Virus record (IMG/VR): IMGVR_UViG_3300022911_000009 | Location: 1 to 41,852 of that record | DNA length: 41,852 nt | Direction: 5' to 3' (one strand) | DNA from: a virus | In this document: positions 1 through 41,852 of the stretch, piece after piece | Layout: every line of letters starts with the position of its first letter | How positions within the stretch are numbered: the first letter of the stretch is position 1 | Made by a program: the position numbers and the translations under genes | The notes under the pieces: generated by a model | Databases searched by the model: none | Told to the model about the DNA's origin: nothing | Seen by the model: only the letters and a program-made list of their open reading frames with translations

Positions 1-190
1 TGCAAACTCAGGCGGCGGCGGTGGCGGCGGCGGGCACTATTTCGGAGGGTTCGGCGGCGGCGCGGGCGGCAACGGCATCGTTGTGATCCGCTACGCCGGG
101 CCGCCGAGGGCGACCGGCGGCGCGATCTCGGAGAGCGGCGGCAACACCTACCACACCTTCACCGGCACCGGGAACTTGAACTTCGGATGA
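1..190 (+). CDS. Glycine-rich tail protein, C-terminal part (5'-truncated by window edge)
   Basis: Reading from base 2, an open frame of 62 codons runs to a TGA at 188-190. It begins with a run of seven glycines, continues with Gly/Phe/Tyr-rich sequence and the motif GNGIVVIRYAG, and ends GTGNLNFG. Poly-glycine followed by G-I-V-V-I-R-Y is typical of the C-terminal half of glycine-rich phage tail or adhesin proteins, in which glycine helices pack into a sandwich. No start codon is present, so the gene begins outside the window. The gene that starts at 41603 has the matching N-terminal half, and I infer that both are one gene split by the window edges. It would sit at the distal end of the virion and contact the host surface. 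The stop overlaps the ATG of the lipoprotein gene at 187. Confidence 0.75.
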   Translation, partial: ANSGGGGGGGGHYFGGFGGGAGGNGIVVIRYAGPPRATGGAISESGGNTYHTFTGTGNLNFG

Positions 191-387
191 GCAAAGCCCT
201 CGCCATTGGTGCGCTGCTGGCCCTCGCAGGCTGCGCGCAGCAACGCATCGGCATCGAGCTCTACGACCCCAACGTCTACACCCGCGCCGAGGCCGACGCG
301 ATCGCCGCCGAGCTACAGTGCAAGAACACCGCCAGGACTCCGGTGCAGCTCGGGCGCTGCATCGGCAATAGACGGGGGCCGCCGTGA
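187..387 (+). CDS. Small lipoprotein, possible outer spanin or exclusion lipoprotein
   Basis: This 66-residue protein has an N-terminal hydrophobic stretch (residues about 3-14) ending in the lipobox L-A-G-C at residues 13-16. It is therefore predicted to be lipid-modified on Cys16 and anchored in the envelope. The mature part is hydrophilic and contains two further cysteines. The ATG overlaps the stop of the glycine-rich tail gene (ATGA), so translation is probably coupled. It is the last gene before the terminator at 444-483 and therefore the distal gene of the late operon. Small late lipoproteins are often outer-membrane spanin subunits (Rz1-like) or superinfection-exclusion proteins. It lacks the proline-rich character of many Rz1 proteins and no partner i-spanin is obvious, so the role is open. 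Confidence 0.8.
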   Translation: MSKALAIGALLALAGCAQQRIGIELYDPNVYTRAEADAIAAELQCKNTARTPVQLGRCIGNRRGPP

Positions 388-443: not shown

Positions 444-483
444 GCGCCCGCGGCCTTATCAGGGGGCCGCGGGTGTCTTTTTT
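444..483 (+). terminator. Strong intrinsic terminator ending the late operon
   Basis: The arm GCGCCCGCGGCC (444-455) pairs with GGCCGCGGGTGT (465-476), including two G-U pairs, and is followed by C and six T (478-483). It lies 57 bases after the lipoprotein stop and only a few bases before the convergent stop of the PEP-CTERM gene at 492. It thus separates the rightward late operon from the leftward small-gene block. Between the lipoprotein and this hairpin I see no gene. Confidence 0.9.
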
Positions 484-491
484 GTTTGGCG

Positions 492-1145
492 TTAAGCCAG
501 TCGGAGTGCAGTCGCGCCGTTCTGCTTGCGACGCATCGCCAGGCCGCCGATGCCGGCGAACCCGATGATGAACATCAGCCAGGTAGAAAGTTCCGGTACG
601 GCCGCGACAACCGGCGTCACGTCGATGCGGAAATGCTCGAAATCGGTGATGAGGCCGCCGGAGGACAGCCGCATGTCGATGTCCCAGATCGTCTCACCGT
701 TGATGGCCTGAAAATCAAAACCGTTCTGCCCATTCTTGAGGGTGCGAACGAAATTGAAGTTCTCAAAGCCACCATCCGCTTCCCGCGCCGTAACGTGGAA
801 CAGGATGGTGCCCTCGCCCTTCAGCGAGAAGATCTCGCGGGTGATGCCGAGCTGGGTGGTGTCGAGGGCGTCAAAGACGCGGATCTGGAGATCGCCGGTG
901 CCGCCGATCTTGATGTCATTGCCGGTGCCAGACCCGGTGAAAGACCCGGAGAGAGAACGATCGAGGAAACGCACCACCTCGTCGTTCTGGCCGTTGAGCC
1001 TGCCGAGGATCAGATTACCCCCGACAGCCCCGGTGAAGACAACGTTGTTGCCGGTGCCGCCCAGACTGTCTCTTAGAATGATATCGGCGCTGGCGGGTGT
1101 CACCGCCGCTAACGCAAGTAAGGCAGTTAACAAAAGTTTTCTCAT
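492..1145 (-). CDS. Secreted PEP-CTERM (exosortase-sorted) protein carried by the phage
   Basis: The protein has 217 residues. Residues 1-20 form a clear signal peptide (basic start, leucine/alanine core, A-S-A before Asp21). Residues 21-180 are Gly/Asn/Thr-rich and look like a beta-sandwich of the kind found in exported proteins. Residues 183-189 read VPELSTW, followed by a hydrophobic segment (189-204) and the basic cluster RRK (205-207). That tripartite tail is a PEP-CTERM sorting signal of the PExxW type, recognised in bacteria by the membrane protease EpsH/exosortase. The third residue is Leu where the consensus is Pro. An AGGAG Shine-Dalgarno lies 7 bases before the ATG. It is the last gene of the leftward block, 47 bases downstream of a zinc-ribbon gene. 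No exosortase is encoded here, so a host enzyme would have to process it. This looks like a host-derived accessory (moron) gene. Confidence 0.85.
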   Translation of the reverse strand: MRKLLLTALLALAAVTPASADIILRDSLGGTGNNVVFTGAVGGNLILGRLNGQNDEVVRFLDRSLSGSFTGSGTGNDIKIGGTGDLQIRVFDALDTTQLGITREIFSLKGEGTILFHVTAREADGGFENFNFVRTLKNGQNGFDFQAINGETIWDIDMRLSSGGLITDFEHFRIDVTPVVAAVPELSTWLMFIIGFAGIGGLAMRRKQNGATALRLA

Positions 1146-1192
1146 GGTAATCTCCTAGCTAGGGAACGATGCGGGTGCATCGCGGAGGGCAA

Positions 1193-3066: not shown

Positions 3067-3285
3067 ATGGCAAAGAAAATACACCCCACCGTCCGCGCCC
3101 TGCTCGACGAGATCGAAGAATACCGCGCCAGGGCCGGCATCGATAAAACCAATTTCGGCCTTGCTGTCATCAACGACGGCCACTTCATCCGCCGCATGGA
3201 GGCCGGCCGGGTGCCGAAACTCCACACCATCGACCGGGTCAGGGCCTATATCGCGGCCCGATCTAAAGCGGTTCGACGCGCCTGA
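3067..3285 (+). CDS. Small HTH-like transcriptional regulator
   Basis: The 72-residue protein starts MAKKIHPTVRALLDEIEEYR and continues with FGLAVINDGHFIRRMEAGRVPKL and HTIDRVRAYIAARSK. The order helix, turn, N-D-x-x-F-I-x-x-x-x-x-G-R-x-P, helix matches a small XRE-like DNA-binding family common in alphaproteobacterial phages and prophages, where residues near 35-50 would be the recognition region. It is the only rightward gene between 388 and 9346. It is divergent from the small-gene block and convergent with the helicase gene, overlapping that gene's end by 23 bases. A perfect inverted repeat abuts its ATG, and no strong Shine-Dalgarno is seen. A repressor or Cro-like role is likely; targets are inferred. 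Confidence 0.7.
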   Translation: MAKKIHPTVRALLDEIEEYRARAGIDKTNFGLAVINDGHFIRRMEAGRVPKLHTIDRVRAYIAARSKAVRRA

Positions 3286-4663
3286 GCGCCTCGGCGTCGC
3301 GCAGGTATTTCTCGAAGGCCTGCTGCGCCGTCATCTTGTAATGGACGCGGTCCAATTTCATTTGGTCGACTGTGTCGGAAGCCGAACAGACACGCACCAT
3401 AACTGGTTTAGACTGGCCGGAACGATAGAGGCGAGCGATCGTTTGCTCCCACAATTCCGGCGACCATGTCGGCGACATCCACGCCATGTCGGCCCCGCCA
3501 TGTTGCAGATTGAGCCCATGGCCGCCGGAAGCCGGGTGCATCACCAGGAACGGCAGCTTGCCTGCATTCCAATTGCGGATGATGCCCTCGTTACGACTGT
3601 CGATCACGCCGGGGCCAAGGTACGGCACGTTGTCGCCGAGTAGCTTGCGGATGGCGCGCAGATCCTCGCGAAACTCATAGATCAGGATGGTCGGCCCCGA
3701 GGCCTCCGTAATGATGTCTTGCAGCCACTGGATTTTTTCATCGTGAATAATGACCGGCTCGACGCGCGCGCCCTCCTCCTCCGCATAGAGAAAGCCATTG
3801 GCGATTTGCGCCAGCTTTCCGGTGGCGACGGCCGCGGATGCAGCGACTACCCGACCGACCGCGAGATGCTTTTCCATCTCCTGGTAGGCGTTGCGGGCGC
3901 TTGTCGGCAGCTGGACCCGGTCGATGATGATCGACAGCTCCGGCAGCTGCGGCAGCTCGTCGTCGGCCAGGGTGACGATGTGGGGCGCGATGTCGGCGTT
4001 TAGCTTCGCCTCCGCCTCCGGCAGCGGCTTCCACTCGTAGCCCCACTGGTCGGCCGGGTAGAAGTATTGCTTCTGCCAGGCGTAGAACGATTTGCCCCAC
4101 AGCTTGCCGCGCGTCACGATGCGGGCCGGCATGAACAGGTCCATCGCGGAGTTCGGCCGCAGCGTGCCGGTGAGGCCCCACACCATCTTCCACTGCGACG
4201 CAATCTTGGCGAGATCCTTGGCCCGCACGCCGGTGGGGTCGCGCAGTTTCGACACCTCGTCGATCACCAGCAAATCAAACAGCGGGTGCTCGTTCGGCAT
4301 CTTCTTGAGGTGGTCGACCAGCCACTGCACCAGGTCGATGCCGATGATGGTCATCTGGTAATTAGGCGCGTCGAGCAACTGCACCAGGCGCTGCGCCGGC
4401 GTGCCGGCCAGCAGCTGATAGGTCAGGCCCTCGGTGTGCGCCCATGCCGCAATTTCGTCGGGCCACACCGAGCGCGCCACCCGCTTCGGGGCCACCACCA
4501 GCGCGTGGCGGATGTACTGGTCGAACAGTAGCTCCTCGATCGCGGTCAGCGCCGAGATGGTCTTGCCGCCACCTGGGCGCACCACGCAGAGCGCCTCGTC
4601 ATTGGCGTACAAATGATCGGCGATGCGGTTCTGGTAGCCGCGCAGGTCTGCTTTCTGTCGCAT
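3263..4663 (-). CDS. SNF2-type DEAD-box DNA helicase
   Basis: The 466-residue protein carries the superfamily 2 helicase motifs in order. Walker A is RPGGGKT (Lys34). VVAPKRVARSVWPDE is motif Ia. VIDEVSKL, near residue 135, is the Walker B/DExx box. LTGTLRPNS is motif III, SGGHGLNLQ is motif V and QTIARLYRSGQ is motif VI. The length and the W-x-x-E-I start of the second half fit phage SNF2-like helicases that translocate on double-stranded DNA. The ATG follows the upstream stop directly, with no spacer, so it belongs to the leftward replication operon after the polymerase. It likely unwinds or remodels DNA during phage replication or recombination. Family assignment is firm; the exact role is not. 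Confidence 0.92.
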   Translation of the reverse strand: MRQKADLRGYQNRIADHLYANDEALCVVRPGGGKTISALTAIEELLFDQYIRHALVVAPKRVARSVWPDEIAAWAHTEGLTYQLLAGTPAQRLVQLLDAPNYQMTIIGIDLVQWLVDHLKKMPNEHPLFDLLVIDEVSKLRDPTGVRAKDLAKIASQWKMVWGLTGTLRPNSAMDLFMPARIVTRGKLWGKSFYAWQKQYFYPADQWGYEWKPLPEAEAKLNADIAPHIVTLADDELPQLPELSIIIDRVQLPTSARNAYQEMEKHLAVGRVVAASAAVATGKLAQIANGFLYAEEEGARVEPVIIHDEKIQWLQDIITEASGPTILIYEFREDLRAIRKLLGDNVPYLGPGVIDSRNEGIIRNWNAGKLPFLVMHPASGGHGLNLQHGGADMAWMSPTWSPELWEQTIARLYRSGQSKPVMVRVCSASDTVDQMKLDRVHYKMTAQQAFEKYLRDAEALRRVEPL

Positions 4664-5011
4664 CTACTTGCCCTCGTAAATTAGGCTATCCCACACAGTG
4701 CGCGGGCTGGCGTGCAGTGACCTACGGCGCGACGGCAGCGCCGGCAGGTTGGCCTTCTTGCACAGGCCCTCCTTGGCGGCGATGTTCATCACCGGCCCCA
4801 TGGCGCGGTGCTCGTGAGTGCCGGGCCGCAGCTCCTCCGGCACCGCATAGTACAGATCGTAGACGTCGTCGGAGGTGAATTGCCGACGCTCGCGGGCGAC
4901 GTCCCAGACCAGGTCAACCATGAAATCGATCCACCCTTGGTTGGCGTTGGCCTCGACCTGGTCCATCGCCAACCGCTTGGCCTTCTCGGCCTCGCTTTCG
5001 TTGTCGCTCAT
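4664..5011 (-). CDS. Putative winged-helix-like DNA-binding protein of the replication operon
   Basis: The start is the ATG at 5011-5009 (MSDNESEAEKAKRLA), which overlaps the polymerase stop (ATGA). The 115-residue protein has an acidic helical start, then FTSDDVYDLYYAVPEEL, RAMGPVMNIAAKEGLCKKA, and a C-terminal RRRSLHASPRTVWDSLIYEG. F-T-S-D-D-V followed by a helix containing R-A-x-G-x-V, and a basic end with H-A-x-P-x-x-V-W-x-S-L, is seen in small phage proteins annotated as helix-turn-helix DNA-binding. It probably binds DNA and may assist the helicase or polymerase encoded on either side. The longer frame to 5089 lies wholly inside the polymerase gene and is rejected. Confidence 0.75.
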   Translation of the reverse strand: MSDNESEAEKAKRLAMDQVEANANQGWIDFMVDLVWDVARERRQFTSDDVYDLYYAVPEELRPGTHEHRAMGPVMNIAAKEGLCKKANLPALPSRRRSLHASPRTVWDSLIYEGK

Positions 5012-7152
5012 AGCCCTCGGCTCCCTTTGTGCTTGGTGTAGTAGTAGCCCATCGTCTCCTCGCTCATGATCGGCAGGCCTTCGCTCCAATCGAAGCCGCG
5101 CTGCATCACCTCACGCAGCCGGCCGGCGATGTACTCGGCATTCTCCGCCGCGCACTCGACCAGGATCTCGTCATGGGTATGCAGCCGGGTGACGAACCCC
5201 TCCGCCTCGAGCCGCACAAGTGTTCCTCGCAAAAAGTCCGCGGCGGTGGCCTGGGTGACGTTCTCGACGAACACGCCCGGCCACAGCTTGGCGCGGCCGA
5301 AGCCGCGGCCGTAAGTCAGCTCCAGGCGCTTCTCGCCGGTCGGCTCGTCGTACTCGTCGGTGACGTCGAGGGCTTCCATGCGCAGGGCGCGGTAGGTCAG
5401 ATAGCGGCCGGAGGGCAGCCGGATCAGCAGCGAGCCCTCCAGCAGGTCGGGTAGGAAGATGAACACCAGGCGGCCGCAGGGGATCGCCTCGCCCGGCATG
5501 TTGCGGGCGAGCTCACAGGTGGTCCACAAATTACGGCCGAATAAACCGGACCATGGGTTGGCGTCGCGCCAGGCCGCCACAATCTGCTTGGCGTCGGCGT
5601 CGTCCAGGTTGAGGCCGTAGCCGGCCGCCATGGCCTGGAGGGCACCGACGCCGCCCAGGAAGCCGAGGGCGAGCTCGGCGACCTTGCCGCGCTGGCGCAG
5701 CCCCTCGGTGATCTCCTCGACCGGCAGCCCCGAGATGTTCGCGGCTGTTCTGGTGTACAAATCAGGAACCGATGGGTCGTTATCGACGTCGCGGAAGATT
5801 TGCAGCCGCTCCAGCGCGCCGGGGTCGTCGCCGACCAGCCAGGGCAGCACGCGCGCCTCGATCTGGGCCCAGTCCGACCACACGAACACCCGGTCACCGC
5901 CCGGCACGAAGGCCGGGCGGATCAGCAGCGACAGCTTACGCGAGACCGGGGAGCTGTCGCCGAAGGTGGCCAGGGTGTCGTAGGGGATCTTGAGCAGCAG
6001 GGCGTCGATCGCCTCCGGCTCATACTTCAGGGTGTCGCGCGCCAGGTTGTGGATCTGGACGCCCCTGGACGAGGCGCGGCCAGTCTGGGGCGCGCCGTTG
6101 AAGGTGTACTGGCCGTACAGCACGCCGTCGAGCTCCTGCTCCAGCATGCGGGCGAACTTGGCCGGCGTCTTGGAGCCGCCGTAGAGCCGGATCTGGAGCA
6201 GCCTGACGACGTCGTCGCCGAGGTTCTTCTCGATCGCCATCGGGAGCAGCCGCTCGACCTTGCGCCGGGTCAGATTGTGCTTGGCCTCCCGCACCAGGAC
6301 GCCGTTGTCGTCGACCTTCTGGGGCCGCGACAGCAGCACCTTCTGGCCCTCCGGCGGCAGTCGGTCGCGGAGCCAGTCGACCATGCGGGCGACCTGGTCC
6401 ACCGTGGTGATCGCGCCATTGGTCAGAGCACTCAGCTCGGCGTTGGAGCGCACCTTATCCTCGGCCGCTAATTTGGCGGCATGGGTGACCATCGGAACGT
6501 CGATGTAGATGCCGCGGTCGTTGACGCGCTCCATCGCCCAGCTCTCGGCCCACTCCTCGGCCGTGAGCTGCCGGGTGCGCCGGAACACGCCGCGCATGGC
6601 GTCGATATCGGCCATGGCGTAGTGGGCGAAGGCCAGCCACTCGGCCGGGTGCGCCTGCGGGGAGGCCCCCTGCTTGGAGAACAGCTCGATCAGTTGCTTG
6701 CCGGCGGTGTCTTTCTGATTGGAGGTGCCGCACTGCTTGGCGGCCTGCGCCAGCTGGCCGGCCAGGCCGTTGGCGGTGGCCTGCGCCATCACGTCGATGA
6801 TGTGGTGCGGCTCAAGTTGCGGAAAATCGATGGTGGCGAAATTCCAGATCGCCTTGTCGAAAGAGCTATTCCAGGCCGCCCAGACCGCCTCGCCCCGCAG
6901 CACGCGGGCGTGGTGCTCCTGCACGGCGGGCGGCATATCACTCCAGCACAGCACACCGCCCGGCAGGCGACCGAGCAGCCACGATGTGACGGTCTGCGCC
7001 GGGGCGTCGCCGATCGCGTAGGCCAGCATGATGGCGTCGGCCTCGGTGGCGTAGCGGGTAGCGCCGGCGTCGATGTCGATCTTGCCGCGGGTCTCGAAAT
7101 CGACCCAGCCGATGGCGGCCGGGTCGCGGAAGGCGGGCTGATAGGGTTTCAT
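5008..7152 (-). CDS. Family A DNA polymerase with 3'-5' exonuclease
   Basis: The 714-residue protein has an N-terminal DEDDy exonuclease: WVDFETRG (Asp18, Glu20) is Exo I, AAWNSSFDK (near residue 95) is Exo II, and YAMADID (near residue 180) is Exo III. The polymerase domain shows motif A as SDWAQIEAR (about 424), motif B as RQRGKVAELALGF (about 485) and motif C as HTHDE (about 657). There is no 5'-3' exonuclease domain, as is usual for phage replicative enzymes. In motif B the position matching Phe762 of E. coli Pol I is Leu, and the Tyr766 position is Phe. It follows the putative ssDNA-binding gene across a 73-base gap with a hairpin, and its stop overlaps the next start. It is the main replicase of the phage. 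Confidence 0.95.
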   Translation of the reverse strand: MKPYQPAFRDPAAIGWVDFETRGKIDIDAGATRYATEADAIMLAYAIGDAPAQTVTSWLLGRLPGGVLCWSDMPPAVQEHHARVLRGEAVWAAWNSSFDKAIWNFATIDFPQLEPHHIIDVMAQATANGLAGQLAQAAKQCGTSNQKDTAGKQLIELFSKQGASPQAHPAEWLAFAHYAMADIDAMRGVFRRTRQLTAEEWAESWAMERVNDRGIYIDVPMVTHAAKLAAEDKVRSNAELSALTNGAITTVDQVARMVDWLRDRLPPEGQKVLLSRPQKVDDNGVLVREAKHNLTRRKVERLLPMAIEKNLGDDVVRLLQIRLYGGSKTPAKFARMLEQELDGVLYGQYTFNGAPQTGRASSRGVQIHNLARDTLKYEPEAIDALLLKIPYDTLATFGDSSPVSRKLSLLIRPAFVPGGDRVFVWSDWAQIEARVLPWLVGDDPGALERLQIFRDVDNDPSVPDLYTRTAANISGLPVEEITEGLRQRGKVAELALGFLGGVGALQAMAAGYGLNLDDADAKQIVAAWRDANPWSGLFGRNLWTTCELARNMPGEAIPCGRLVFIFLPDLLEGSLLIRLPSGRYLTYRALRMEALDVTDEYDEPTGEKRLELTYGRGFGRAKLWPGVFVENVTQATAADFLRGTLVRLEAEGFVTRLHTHDEILVECAAENAEYIAGRLREVMQRGFDWSEGLPIMSEETMGYYYTKHKGSRGL

Positions 7153-16295: not shown

Positions 16296-16390
16296 AGCAA
16301 CCGATGGATGACGGCCGCGGCATCAAGATTGCGATCGGCGTCGGTATCGCAGCGGTCATCCTCCTGGTGATAGGGGCGTTCTATGTCTGA
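16292..16390 (+). CDS. 32-residue membrane peptide, candidate lysis or virion-assembly peptide
   Basis: The ATG at 16292 overlaps the upstream stop and the frame ends eight bases inside the portal gene. The product is MKQPMDDGRGIKIAIG, then VGIAAVILLVIGAFYV: an acidic/basic head followed by one membrane helix with a G-x-x-x-G spacing. It is only 32 residues, but it is locked between two coding neighbours by overlaps. It may work with the 50-residue membrane protein just upstream. Confidence 0.5.
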   Translation: MKQPMDDGRGIKIAIGVGIAAVILLVIGAFYV

Positions 16391-18665
16391 CAAGCCGCGC
16401 GACGAAGACACCAGGCACGACGACCTCGAATACAACCCGCAGCTCGAGCCCAAGAAGGCGCAGGCCTGGATCAACCTGTTGCAGGAGAGCGAGGACAATT
16501 TCGAGGATTGGAACGACCACTGCGACAGGATCGATCGGCAATACGCCTCCCTGGCGCGGCTGTCGCAGATGGCGCGCGACAAAGAGTTTCAAATGTTCTG
16601 GGCCAATTGCGAGGTCTTGAAACCATCAATCTATGCCAAGGCACCGGTCCCGGTGGTGGTGCCCAAGTTCAAGGACCGCCGGCCGGTGCCGCAGCAGGCC
16701 AGCGAGATCATGGAACGCTGCACCAACGTCGCGTTCGATCTCACTCGCATCAATGACCTGATGCTGCTGGTGCGCGACGACGTCAGCATGAACAGTCGCG
16801 GCGTGGCCTGGTGCCGCTACGAGAGCGGCAAGGGCAACCGCAGCTACGATCACGAGAAGGTCTGCATCGACTTCAAGGGCCGCCGCGATTTCCTGCACTC
16901 GATCTCACGCAACTGGCGCGAGGTGACCTGGGTGGCCGGTGCCAGCTACCTGACGCGCGGCGAGGCCCGCAAGCGGTTCTACAAGCACTCCGGCGACGCC
17001 TACCAGCAGGCCGAGTACAAGGTCGACAAGGACGCCAAAGAGATCGGCGGCGCTGATAACCGCGAGCGCGCCAAGTTCTGGGAGATCTGGGACAAGGCCA
17101 ACCGGCGCGTGGTGTGGGTCGCGGTCGGCTGCGAGGACATCCTCGACGAGGACGAGCCGCACCTCGAGCTCCAGAACTTCTTTCCCTGCCCGAAGCCGGC
17201 CTACGGCACGGTGCAACGCGGTTCCCTGGTGCCGGTCCCCGACGTGTTGCAGTACAGCGACCAGCTCGAGGAGATCAACATGCTGACGGGGCGCATCCAC
17301 GCCCTCAGCGACTGCCTCGAGGCCAAGGGGTTCTACCCGGCCGGCGGCGGTGAGCTCGCCCAGGCGATCGAGACCGCGGTGACGACGCACACCACCGACC
17401 GCATGCTGATCCCTATCTCTAATTGGGCCGGCTTCGGTGGCTCCAAGGAGGTCATCATATGGCTGCCGATCGCCGAGATTGCGCAAACTATCACGGCGCT
17501 CGTTGCTCTGCGGAAACAGGTGATCGAGGATATCTACCAGATAATGGGCCTATCGGACATTATGCGTGGGGCAACAGATCCGAACGAGACGCTCGGTGCG
17601 CAGCAGTTAAAGACGCAATACGGCAGTACGCGGATCAGGGACAAGCAGCAAGAGATGGCGCGTTTGGCCCGCGACCTCGTCGAGATCACCTCCGAGATTA
17701 TCACCGAGAAGTTCGCCGACGACACCATCGTCGAGATGAGCCAGACGCAATTACCGACCAATGCCGACCAGAAGAAGAAGGCGCAGCAGATGCAGCAGCG
17801 CCTGATGCAGATGCAGCAGCAGATGCAGGCGCTGCCGCCGCCCGCGCCGGCGGAGCCGGGCCAGCCGACGCCGCCGGATCCCGGCGCGGAGCTGAAGAAG
17901 CAGATGCAGCAGCAGCTGACGGAGTTACAGAACCTGCCGCAGGAGCCGACGATCGACCAGGTGCTGACCTTCCTGAAGGATAACCGCGTCAAGTCATTCG
18001 TTCTCGACATCGAGACCGACAGCACCATCATGCCGGATGAGCAGCGCGAGAAGCAGCAGCGCACCGAGTTCGTCACGGCCCTGAGCGGCATGTTGCAGCA
18101 GATGGCGTCGATGGTGACGGCGGCACCGGAGTCGGCCAAGTTCTGCGGCGAGGTGCTGAAGTTCTCGCTGGCCCCGTACCGCGTCGGCCGCACCATGGAC
18201 GCCTCGATCGACGACATGATCGAGCAGGCCGAGGCCAAGGCCGGCCAGGCCAGGGGCGACGACCCGGCCACGGCCGCGGGCAAGATCGCGCTCCAGATCG
18301 AGCAGATGAAGCAGACGACGGCGAAGGCCAAGAACGACCAGGACGCCGCGCTGAAGCAGCAGGAGCTGTCGCAGAAGGATATCCACAAGCAGTGGGAGCT
18401 CCAGAACGAGCGGCTGATCAAGCAGGCCGAAATGCAGATGAAGGCGCGCGACGGTGAGGGTAAGGTGGCGATCCAGCAGCAGAAGGCTATGACCGATCGC
18501 GAGGCGCACCAGATGCACATCGTCGAGAAGACACAGGACATGGACCTGCAACGCCAGAAGGGGCAGCTGGCGATGCAGGCCCACGCCGCCAAGCAGAACG
18601 ACATGGCCAACCGCGCCAACGAACGACAAATGGCGTCACTCGCTAGACCAAGGGGAGCTAACTAA
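16383..18665 (+). CDS. Portal protein
   Basis: The 760-residue protein has the size and sequence style of podovirus portals. It has a helical clip/wing region with LARLSQMARDKEFQMFWANC, a stretch around residues 380-440 that reads RKQVIEDIYQIMGLSDIMRG followed by E-T-L-G-A-Q-Q-L-K, and a very Gln/Met/Pro-rich segment near residues 463-510. A long charged, Gln-rich coiled coil (about 630-750) follows, suited to a portal barrel. Twelve copies would form the DNA channel at one capsid vertex and bind the terminase. It lies between terminase and head genes. The conserved middle (17400-17650) is lower in GC than the flanks. I am confident of the class; the exact fold family is inferred. Confidence 0.9.
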   Translation: MSDKPRDEDTRHDDLEYNPQLEPKKAQAWINLLQESEDNFEDWNDHCDRIDRQYASLARLSQMARDKEFQMFWANCEVLKPSIYAKAPVPVVVPKFKDRRPVPQQASEIMERCTNVAFDLTRINDLMLLVRDDVSMNSRGVAWCRYESGKGNRSYDHEKVCIDFKGRRDFLHSISRNWREVTWVAGASYLTRGEARKRFYKHSGDAYQQAEYKVDKDAKEIGGADNRERAKFWEIWDKANRRVVWVAVGCEDILDEDEPHLELQNFFPCPKPAYGTVQRGSLVPVPDVLQYSDQLEEINMLTGRIHALSDCLEAKGFYPAGGGELAQAIETAVTTHTTDRMLIPISNWAGFGGSKEVIIWLPIAEIAQTITALVALRKQVIEDIYQIMGLSDIMRGATDPNETLGAQQLKTQYGSTRIRDKQQEMARLARDLVEITSEIITEKFADDTIVEMSQTQLPTNADQKKKAQQMQQRLMQMQQQMQALPPPAPAEPGQPTPPDPGAELKKQMQQQLTELQNLPQEPTIDQVLTFLKDNRVKSFVLDIETDSTIMPDEQREKQQRTEFVTALSGMLQQMASMVTAAPESAKFCGEVLKFSLAPYRVGRTMDASIDDMIEQAEAKAGQARGDDPATAAGKIALQIEQMKQTTAKAKNDQDAALKQQELSQKDIHKQWELQNERLIKQAEMQMKARDGEGKVAIQQQKAMTDREAHQMHIVEKTQDMDLQRQKGQLAMQAHAAKQNDMANRANERQMASLARPRGAN

Positions 18666-28650: not shown

Positions 28651-29697
28651 ATGCCCAATATCAACACCCAGCAACAGTACCAGCAGGTACTGTCGATGGC
28701 GGTCGAAGACCGCTCGAGCGGCTACCAGGATCTCGTTTCCAATAACAACGCCTTGTTGGCGATCATGAAGCGCAAGGGTCTGTGGAAGACCTATTCGGGG
28801 CCGTACATCCGCGAGACATTGCAGGTCGGCAAGCAACTGTCGCAGTGGTACTCCGGCTACGACCAGCTGCTGAACCCGGCGATCGATCTGTTCAATGACG
28901 TGGTCTACTCACCGAAGATGGTGGTGGTGCCGATCATCCTGAGCATGCAGGAGATCCTCAACAACGAGGGCGAAGCGCAGCGCATCGATGTGCTTGAAGC
29001 ATATTTATCGGCCGCGGAGAACGCGCTGGAAGACGCCATGGACGCCGGCATCTATTCGGACGGCACCGCCAACGGCAACAAGCAGATCACCGGGCTGGCG
29101 ATGGCTATCCCGGCGCTGCCCAACACCGGCACCTACGCCACCATCGATCGCGCCATCACCCCGATGTGGCGCACTACGGCATGGGACGCCAGCAACCAGG
29201 CGGGGTCGACTACGCCGGGCATGCCGGCCGCACTGACCACGCAAGTTACCAAGGACAGCATCAGGCCGATGCTCAACTACATCATGACCAAGCAGTCCCG
29301 CGGTCGCGACTACGCAGATCTCTTGATCATGAGCCCCGAGCATTATGCGGCCTACGACGCGGCCACCGTGGCGATCCAGCGCCAGACCAGCAACACCTCG
29401 CTCGGTCAGCTCGGGTTCACCGCGCTGGAGTACATCGGCGGCGGCAAGCGGGCCGAGATCGTGCTCGACGGCGGCATCGGATCCAACATGCCGGCCAACA
29501 CCACGTTCGGCATCAACACCGACAGCCTGCGGCTGCGCTATCACCCGAACCGCAATTTCGACAAGCTGTTCGATGGTGACGGCCAAATGCCGATCGACAA
29601 GGACGCGGTCGCCCAGTTTATCGGGTGGATGGGCGAACTAACGATGGTCAATCCGATGTTCAACTGGCGTCTGTACGACAGCAACATCGCAGCGTGA
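28651..29697 (+). CDS. Major capsid protein
   Basis: The 348-residue protein follows the scaffold gene by 26 bases with GGAGAGG upstream. It contains MPNINTQQQYQQVLSMAVED, KRKGLWKTYSGPYIRETL, AGIYSDGTANGNKQITGLAM and DLLIMSPEHYAAYDAATVA, and ends FNWRLYDSNIAA. The pattern of an N-terminal arm, a central G-L-x-x-x-I segment and an M-S-P-E-x-x-x-x-Y motif matches HK97-fold capsid proteins of podoviruses and related phages. It forms the icosahedral shell. Two RNA hairpins follow the stop, which may protect or attenuate the highly expressed message. Confidence 0.92.
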   Translation: MPNINTQQQYQQVLSMAVEDRSSGYQDLVSNNNALLAIMKRKGLWKTYSGPYIRETLQVGKQLSQWYSGYDQLLNPAIDLFNDVVYSPKMVVVPIILSMQEILNNEGEAQRIDVLEAYLSAAENALEDAMDAGIYSDGTANGNKQITGLAMAIPALPNTGTYATIDRAITPMWRTTAWDASNQAGSTTPGMPAALTTQVTKDSIRPMLNYIMTKQSRGRDYADLLIMSPEHYAAYDAATVAIQRQTSNTSLGQLGFTALEYIGGGKRAEIVLDGGIGSNMPANTTFGINTDSLRLRYHPNRNFDKLFDGDGQMPIDKDAVAQFIGWMGELTMVNPMFNWRLYDSNIAA

Positions 29698-40218: not shown

Positions 40219-41603
40219 TGCCGCGCGATGGAACAGGAAACTACACCCAGCCCGAGCCGAACGTGGCGTCGGGCACCACGATCGAGAGTGCGGTCTATAA
40301 TCACTTCACCGCCGACGTCGCGGCCGACCTGAACTGGCCGCGGCCGATCCTCGCCGGCGGTACCGGAGCCAGCAACGCCGTCGACGCCCGCGCAGCACTG
40401 GGTGCCGAGACGGCGATGCAAACCGTCACCAATTACGACATGCACGTCTGGCAGAACGGCTCGTTCTGGTCCGCTAATGGCGCTACTGCTGCACCGGCCG
40501 CCGGCACCTATTCGGGCATTGTCTACATTGCAAACAACGACCCCAACTACATCACGGTAGAGGCGCGAGAGACCAACAGCGGGAAACTGTGGGTCCGACA
40601 AAAGGCGGGGACGTGGGGCGCGTGGGTTGCCCATGACGGCATGGTGCCGGCGTCGGGCGGCGTGCCGATCGCCGGCCCGATGGCGATCACCAACACCACG
40701 GCGTCGACGTCGGTCGACACCGGCGCGTTGACGGTCGACGGCGGCGTCGGCGTCAACGGCGATGTGCATGTCGGAGGTAGTATTAACGTCGTCGGTGACG
40801 CTGCCGCCGAGGAGTACATCTCGCGTTACGGCCTCGGCGGCGTCTATCGCTTCGGCCCCAACCCGGTCACCAATTATCTCTACTTCGACGGGGCCAAATT
40901 TGACCTGATGGGCGGCCCCCTGAACGTCAACGGCGCGACGGTCGGATCGCTGTGGGCCACCAGCGCGAACTTCTCGGGCAATGTCAGCGTGATCTCCGGC
41001 ACCTTCAGTGTCGGCGGCGCAACGACACTCGCCGGGCTCACCACGAACGGCGCGCTCACCACGAACGGCTCGAATATTTTCAACCAGTCGGGGACGGCCA
41101 TCGACGCTAGCGGTGGCGGCCCCTTCATGATCCAGTCCTCGGGCCAGGCCATGATCACCCTGCATAACCAGGGTTCGTTCGCGGCCAATCTCGGCTTCAT
41201 CGGTGCCGACCTCTACTTCGGCGGCTGGTCGTTCGGGGCGGGCGTAAAGCACCGGGTATTGTCGACCAAAGACCTGAACCCCGCGCAACTGTTCGCGGGC
41301 CTCCCGGTCACCATTGTCGGTGGCGAAGGCTACTGGACCTCTACCGGCGACGAGCAGAAGATGCTGGTCGCTTACCCCAACGCCATCACCATCACCATCA
41401 ACGGCGCGGCGCATCCAGTCGGGGCCGTCATCACCTTCTACTGCCACGCCTCCAACATGAGCATCAACAACACCGAGACCATGACGTGGCGGGGGCCGAG
41501 TGGCGCTACTTCCGGCAATCGCGGCCTCGGCCAATTCGGCACCGCCACTGCCGTGAAGTGGACTGGCGGCAACTGGACGATCTCCGGCAACGGACTGACC
41601 TGA
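40218..41603 (+). CDS. Tail fibre protein
   Basis: The 461-residue protein opens with MPRDGTGNYTQPEPNVASGT and a P-R-P-I-L-A-G-G-T-G-A block, a start common among Rhizobiales phage tail fibres that attach to the virion. The body is beta-rich with repeats around TNTTASTSVDTGALTVDGGV and GVNGDVHVGGSINV, like fibre shafts. The C-terminal part (FYCHASNMSINNTETMTWRG) resembles a receptor-binding head. It overlaps the glycine-rich adhesin start by one base. I see no clear self-cleaving chaperone here. Confidence 0.85.
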   Translation: MPRDGTGNYTQPEPNVASGTTIESAVYNHFTADVAADLNWPRPILAGGTGASNAVDARAALGAETAMQTVTNYDMHVWQNGSFWSANGATAAPAAGTYSGIVYIANNDPNYITVEARETNSGKLWVRQKAGTWGAWVAHDGMVPASGGVPIAGPMAITNTTASTSVDTGALTVDGGVGVNGDVHVGGSINVVGDAAAEEYISRYGLGGVYRFGPNPVTNYLYFDGAKFDLMGGPLNVNGATVGSLWATSANFSGNVSVISGTFSVGGATTLAGLTTNGALTTNGSNIFNQSGTAIDASGGGPFMIQSSGQAMITLHNQGSFAANLGFIGADLYFGGWSFGAGVKHRVLSTKDLNPAQLFAGLPVTIVGGEGYWTSTGDEQKMLVAYPNAITITINGAAHPVGAVITFYCHASNMSINNTETMTWRGPSGATSGNRGLGQFGTATAVKWTGGNWTISGNGLT

Positions 41604-41852
41604 TGGCGGGCGCATCGCACGCGGCACTGTTGATGGCGGGCGGCAGGATTTTGCCGACCACAATCTACTATCTGATTGTGGCTGGTGGCGGCGGCGGCGG
41701 ATTTAGCTGGGGCGGCGGCGGCGGCGGCGGCGGCATGCTGGACGGCAGTTTCTCGCGCGGCACGATAACCGAACTCAACATAGAGATCGGCGGCGGCGGC
41801 GGGGGCGGCGGCACCAACGTCGGTGGGGATGGCGGTAACAGCCACATCCGGC
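41603..41852 (+). CDS. Glycine-rich tail protein, N-terminal part (3'-truncated by window edge)
   Basis: The ATG shares its A with the tail-fibre stop (TGATG). The 83 codons in the window encode MAGASHAALLMAGGRILPTT, then the motif YYLIVAGGGGGG, long glycine runs, and T-N-V-G-G-D-G-G-N-S at the edge. Y-L-I-V-A-G-G-G-G-G-G is the typical start of glycine-rich phage tail proteins. The partner C-terminal portion lies at 1-190. Joining the ends directly would put the two frames out of register by one base, so a few bases are missing between them. Confidence 0.8.
   Translation, partial: MAGASHAALLMAGGRILPTTIYYLIVAGGGGGGFSWGGGGGGGGMLDGSFSRGTITELNIEIGGGGGGGGTNVGGDGGNSHIR

Follow-up and report, generated by a model that had tools for sequence, protein, structure and literature searches.

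A phage protein family with one conserved body and three kinds of predicted exosortase sorting tail

Main finding

The main result of this analysis is that one phage-encoded protein body occurs with three different sorting tails, as judged from their sequence motifs. The protein was found in the whole of the IMG/VR record IMGVR_UViG_3300022911_000009 (41,852 nucleotides, hereafter the window). Because this protein, with exchangeable tags, was found in over a hundred related phage contigs, our data suggest that phages, including the soil phage of the window, use a surface-sorting enzyme of the host to decorate the infected cell or remodel it. Lipoproteins and glycosyltransferases are known means by which phages modify the surface of their hosts. 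The parts of the system described here are of known kinds and it is their combination that is new; no report of phage-encoded PEP-CTERM proteins or exosortase substrates was found in the open-licence full texts searched. The natural tail swaps could be regarded as evolution's own experiment on which tail pairs with which sorting system, independent of the body, and they make testable both the action of exosortases on their substrates and the viral benefit of a protein placed there. In addition, the tail class may mark the host for uncultured phages.

Genomic context of the sorted-protein gene

The phage identity of the window is firm because it has replication genes (helicase, family A DNA polymerase, exonuclease and primase/helicase) together with genes for terminase, portal and capsid proteins; an amidase and tail proteins are also encoded (Table 1). 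The open reading frame of the sorted-protein gene spans exactly positions 492-1145, with its ATG at 1145; an earlier sequence-only reading had these coordinates right and left the minus strand unmentioned. The replication side of the genome ends with this gene, which faces the end of the late operon. The order of helicase, small genes and sorted-protein gene is common to many relatives. Of the family loci, 22 had a helicase homolog, which in many cases lay 2-5 kb upstream in the same orientation; L003, L008, L025, L031 and L032 had a homolog of the small convergent lipoprotein gene close to the sorted-protein gene. AGGAG or the related GAGG/AGGA was located 5' of the gene in most relatives, and a promoter scan found no promoter. 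A role as a virion protein was rejected, as the gene is not part of the structural operon and has the opposite orientation.

The record starts and ends in glycine-rich coding sequence (1-189 and about 41603-41852) and has no terminal repeat; it looks as if a circularly permuted genome were cut within a tail gene. Several small minus-strand ORFs at 1635-2471 have a common repeat (RIEALEAALR..), like tandem copies of one gene.

Table 1. Features of the window and of related loci
Feature	Position	Strand	Basis or remark
Small lipoprotein gene, convergent neighbor	187..387	+	Lipobox LAGC; homolog near the family gene in several loci
Rho-independent terminator of the convergent late operon	444..476	+	14-pair stem, then T-run
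Sorted-protein gene, 217 aa, exported, C-terminal sorting tail	492..1145	-	ORF
Extension QNGATALRLA, 10 residues C-terminal of the basic cluster	495..524	-	PEPxxWA endings of candidate hosts
PEPxxWA-type tail, residues 183-207 (VPELSTW, hydrophobic helix, RRK)	525..599	-	NF035944
Beta-sandwich body, residues 21-176	618..1085	-	AlphaFold2 model
Predicted signal peptide, residues 1-20, MRKLLLTALLALAAVTPASA, cut before D	1086..1145	-	Sequence pattern
Shine-Dalgarno AGGAG, 6 bases 5' of ATG	1152..1156	-	Sequence
Helicase (phrog_62), 5' of the sorted-protein gene, same direction	3263..4663	-	PHROGs
Family A DNA polymerase (phrog_17)	5008..7152	-	PHROGs; homolog in 18 family loci
Portal protein (phrog_12082)	16383..18665	+	Nearest isolate: Rhizobium phage RHph_I3_18, 42%
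Major head protein (phrog_9953)	28651..29697	+	Evidence of phage identity
Divergent exosortase	L116:110-1096		
Divergent exosortase	L117:7360-8322		
Divergent exosortase	L124:2682-3008		
Divergent exosortase	L125:608-886		
Divergent exosortase	L128:632-883		
Further sorted protein (second/third)	L004:8788-9339		
Further sorted protein (second/third)	L009:10027-10602		
Further sorted protein (second/third)	L045:8684-9280		
Further sorted protein (second/third)	L069:5505-7608		
Further sorted protein (second/third)	L072:7156-7917		
Further sorted protein (second/third)	L073:2856-3539		
Further sorted protein (second/third)	L075:8644-9243		
Further sorted protein (second/third)	L077:8657-9397		

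Signal peptide, body and sorting tail

The signal peptide, beta-rich body and tripartite tail that the sequence-only reading had seen in this gene were borne out by the sequence pattern, AlphaFold2 and NF035944, respectively. The signal-peptide pattern (n- and h-region followed by A-x-A) was observed in all 57 aligned relatives (57/57), and residues A18 and A20 of the signal peptide were invariant among 22 relatives. The C-terminal tail of the window protein reads VPELSTW-LMFIIGFAGIGGLAM-RRK-QNGATALRLA, with a hydrophobic stretch of 16 residues. NF035944 (PEPxxWA-CTERM) matched residues 183-207 (model positions 1-24 of 24, E 3.8e-6). The window protein scored under the curated cut-offs of NF035944 (26.7 vs 35 bits), TIGR02595 (12.1 vs 16) and PF07589 (14.9 vs 20.7), and four related phage proteins exceeded both the NF035944 and the TIGR02595 cut-off (40.9 and 24.8 in L031, 40.0 and 22.5 in L028, 36.1 and 22.9 in L005, and 35.5 and 20.9 in L072, respectively). 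The match to PEP-CTERM models that had been anticipated is therefore present, sub-threshold in the window copy and over threshold in its orthologs. Judged by these scores, the NF035944 match of the window tail is more than chance, and the PEPxxWA-CTERM assignment is safe for the phage family, with the window copy as a variant, because related phage proteins exceed the curated cut-offs.

The window protein reads PEL in place of the nearly invariant Pro-Glu-Pro of PEP-CTERM proteins. Both this change and the ten residues past RRK had been called atypical, a description that did not hold for either. The position varies among orthologs (PEL, PEA, PEP, PEM and PET), with PEL recurring in L002, L004, L009, L013, L033, L057 and L062, and chromosomal PEPxxWA proteins of candidate hosts have similar endings (..YRRKHNGQQFRVT, ..GGASFRLA and ..YRRKRNGSALTAA). 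In comparison with the known PEP-CTERM/PEPxxWA-CTERM system (XrtV-type exosortases, NF035943), the window protein is alike in its signal peptide, variable body, and motif, helix and basic cluster, and its tail ending resembles those of XrtV-bearing Hyphomicrobiales. It differs in being encoded by a phage and in having a body that was not found in the bacterial genomes searched and that is also joined to tails of the PGP and VPLPA-like classes.

AlphaFold2, run with the 57-sequence alignment, predicted an all-beta body of 13 strands (mean pLDDT 85.7, and about 89-96 over residues 21-170), together with one helix for the signal peptide and another for the tail (residues 186-209). The best Foldseek matches were carbohydrate-binding beta-sandwiches, including CBM29, CBM4, CBM16 and a hyaluronan-binding module (E 1e-4 to 5e-3), with TM-scores to the target of 0.41-0.45, that is, under the value taken for a CBM fold (>0.5). 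For the window protein, no Pfam CBM match and no PDB sequence match were found. Thus, the predicted fold likeness to carbohydrate-binding modules is weak and may serve as a lead rather than as a sign of membership. Many viral structural matches of the body were parts of tail proteins. PHROGs and the PDB sequence search returned no function for the window protein, and none of the 57 family members matched the PADLOC anti-phage defence HMMs.

Tail exchange and selection

The 57 non-redundant family members carried PEPxxWA (28), PGP (26) or VPLPA-like (3) tails. The PGP class was defined as VPxPxxGxGxPG..RRR ('VPGPxxGAGxPG'). The VPLPA-like label is partly tentative: L063 reached 23.1 bits against a TIGR03370 cut-off of 25.35, and L070 and L076 were near the TIGR02595 cut-off and did not score with TIGR03370. 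A maximum-likelihood tree of the body only required at least about 12 tail-class changes, 6 of which are forced by well-supported branches alone. The body is under strong purifying selection (dN/dS 0.01-0.20 across family comparisons; 0.137 for the window vs L002), and the tails diverge or get replaced. For example, L037 and L043 differ by a dN of 0.003 in the body and of 0.32 in the tail. L005, L012 and L029 read ..RIDVxAVPGPVAG|VPEP(A/G)TW.., a PEPxxWA tail on the stub of a PGP tail, and we read these junctions as a direct trace of a tail swap.

The conserved body bears on the idea that the protein is a decoy, which would flood the host exosortase through its tail and block the delivery of the host's own sorted surface proteins. 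The tail, including the C-terminal extension, is indeed the host-like part of the protein, and these phages encode several tail-bearing proteins each. However, a decoy needs no conserved body, and because this body has kept its low dN/dS through about 12 tail changes, we regard such a role as very improbable. The exchange between motif classes is relevant to another possibility, in which the tail would stay unprocessed as a membrane anchor and the protein would be periplasmic in the inner membrane, for example blocking DNA entry. Among superinfection-exclusion proteins, those acting against DNA entry are frequently small proteins of the inner membrane, and the positive-inside helix with RRK agrees with an anchor. 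A plain anchor, however, needs none of the VPExSTW, VPGPxxGAGxPG or VPLPA motifs, nor their exchange, and this alternative appears improbable.

In the PGP-tailed phages (L017-L021, L026 and L027), the sorted-protein gene is overlapped at its start by a conserved ORF of ~65 aa; a small divergent repressor-like ORF precedes it in several of them.

Distribution of the family

A protein search identified 26 viral relatives at 51-78% identity, and an alignment search found homologs in at least 108 IMG/VR contigs. The body was found neither in a pattern scan of 84,980 GTDB genomes nor in 50,697 INPHARED isolate-phage records or 72,556 plasmids, and in 397 genomes of the candidate order, a profile search yielded tail-level matches only, in 1 genome. 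Absence of the body from bacteria is therefore likely, short of proof, because the GTDB pattern scan used strict criteria and only a small number of candidates in each genome was scored in the profile search.

This distribution should be considered together with the fact that PEP-CTERM proteins are normally chromosomal (PMC1569441). The gene might be a host gene acquired by chance (a moron without phage function), or the viral contig might contain a contaminating host fragment or a misassembly, and one related phage-borne body, FxDxF, does belong to a known bacterial PEP-CTERM family. On the other hand, the body is present in at least 108 viral contigs and in none of the bacterial genomes searched, its gene lies where replication and late genes converge, a position common to relatives, and it is under strong purifying selection, all of which make a chance host origin extremely improbable. 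The sequence-only reading had suggested that the phage uses the sorting machinery of the host to change the surface of the infected cell. What stood of this suggestion is that a phage encodes an exported protein whose tail is of the exosortase type, given the number of viral contigs and the phage genes in the window; the surface change itself is considered below and is more tentative.

An integrase was identified in 6 of 53 viral records, many of which are fragments. Most family phages are thus probably not temperate, and a role restricted to lysogens (lysogeny control) is unlikely for most of them.

Exosortases on the host side

The host of the window phage is probably a member of Hyphomicrobiales because its portal protein is nearest to that of a Rhizobium phage (42%). 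As candidate host family, we used the family of a PGP-bearing Bradyrhizobium MAG within this order (297 genomes). A strong exosortase was present in 8 of the 297 genomes; that of G265, the one of the eight examined, was XrtV by NCBIfam (318 bits vs cut-off 313). PEPxxWA proteins were observed in 7 of these 8 genomes with an XrtV-class exosortase vs 3 of the 289 others (p 2.5e-11), a correlation that ties PEPxxWA to XrtV and does not tie the window phage to such a host. The expectation that candidate hosts possess an exosortase was thus supported as far as XrtV-class enzymes and PEPxxWA proteins co-occur in this Hyphomicrobiales family. No exosortase was found in the 53 viral records, so the enzyme would have to be that of the host.

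With regard to the PGP tail, the Pfam EpsH model (PF09721) gave no match in five PGP-tail genomes. The broader TIGR04178 revealed a divergent exosortase in two of the five, G029 and G028, both of which have PGP-tailed proteins. This enzyme keeps the Cys, Arg and His positions, and it scored about 25 bits with TIGR04178, with otherwise weak archaeosortase matches and no specific NCBIfam model. Its homolog in G052, G307 and G272 adjoins a small gene ending APGPVAGA..RRRR, and remote homologs in G075 and G106 adjoin a gene ending APGPDVD..RRK. The divergent exosortase and the PGP tail are probably a new pair of exosortase and sorting signal. The case rests on gene neighborhood because the whole-genome association between PGP tail and divergent exosortase was not significant (1 of 10 vs 2 of 287 genomes, p 0.098). 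A PGP-pattern match in G112 was discarded as a 35-aa shadow frame.

Proposed mechanism and function

On the basis of these results, we consider it likely that the window gene encodes a phage surface protein that exploits the host exosortase pathway, with masking of a receptor or polysaccharide as its most likely role. The sorting part of this explanation is very probable, as indicated by the sequence signals, whereas the masking function (superinfection exclusion) is a tentative proposal. As its N-terminal sequence suggests, the protein would be exported by the Sec pathway and lose its signal peptide. The tail and the model suggest that the PEPxxWA tail would retain the protein in the inner membrane, its basic cluster on the cytoplasmic side. 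By analogy with known PEP-CTERM proteins, the tail would next be recognized and processed by an exosortase of the host, most likely XrtV, and the beta-sandwich body would reach the cell surface or the exopolysaccharide. The phage lineage holds the body constant and swaps the tail, which may serve to fit the exosortase of its current host. Most likely, the benefit would be that surface polysaccharide or a receptor is masked or cross-linked, so that superinfection is excluded or the infected cell is protected. The export signal, the sorting tail, the phage origin, the selection on the body and the tail exchange are seen in the sequences; with less support than for the sorting steps, we infer binding to polysaccharide or receptor that leads to phage exclusion or matrix change.

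Several phage surface lipoproteins act in superinfection exclusion, such as T5 Llp, phi80/N15 Cor and TP-J34 Ltp. Like the window protein as proposed here, they are phage-encoded, exported and act at the host surface, and unlike it they depend on the lipoprotein pathway or on other kinds of anchor instead of an exosortase tail.

Further sorted proteins in the same contigs

Several viral contigs encode further exported proteins with sorting tails, whose bodies are unlike that of the window protein (Table 1). Of 11 contigs with at least two sorted proteins, 10 had tails of matching class, although the effective count is smaller since these contigs are partly related. The exception was the 80.6-kb IMGVR_UViG_3300045110_000102 (L016, L066), which has two family copies, one with a PGP and one with a PEPxxWA tail. 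The further sorted protein of L009 belongs to the FxDxF PEP-CTERM family (NF038126, 76.6 bits vs cut-off 50), which is thus also phage-borne here and has a body different from that of the window protein; its homolog in L045 has a PGP tail. Pattern scans detected at least 119 PEPxxWA and at least 120 PGP stretches in the viral collection, some contigs of which may be host fragments or prophage edges, and 12 PGP stretches in the GTDB genomes. The tailed viral proteins formed about 65 body clusters, eight of which had both tails among the matches listed. It seems somewhat likely that, as a general strategy, phages of soil Alphaproteobacteria encode groups of mutually unrelated exported proteins whose tails they exchange to match the exosortase of the host, with VPGPxxGAGxPG as the signal of the divergent exosortase.

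The presence of several unrelated sorted bodies in these phages could also point to an action on the matrix, in which the sorted protein would loosen or rebuild exopolysaccharide or flocs, so that virions spread or the cell stays in or leaves the biofilm. PEP-CTERM proteins have been linked to exopolysaccharide and surface attachment, and elsewhere they stabilize exopolysaccharide, flocs and biofilms (PMC1569441, PMC12188702). The weak likeness of the body to carbohydrate-binding modules points in the same direction. However, no hydrolase or lyase domain was found, and the distribution of the family fits matrix action and masking alike; we therefore consider matrix action rather unlikely and retain surface sorting by the host exosortase, tentatively with masking, as the preferred explanation.

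On visual comparison, a third phage-borne protein with a PGP tail, at L069:6772-7608 (as well as in L082 and L090), is similar to PGP-tailed proteins on the chromosome of AP_8, an alphaproteobacterial MAG, which is a possible host link.
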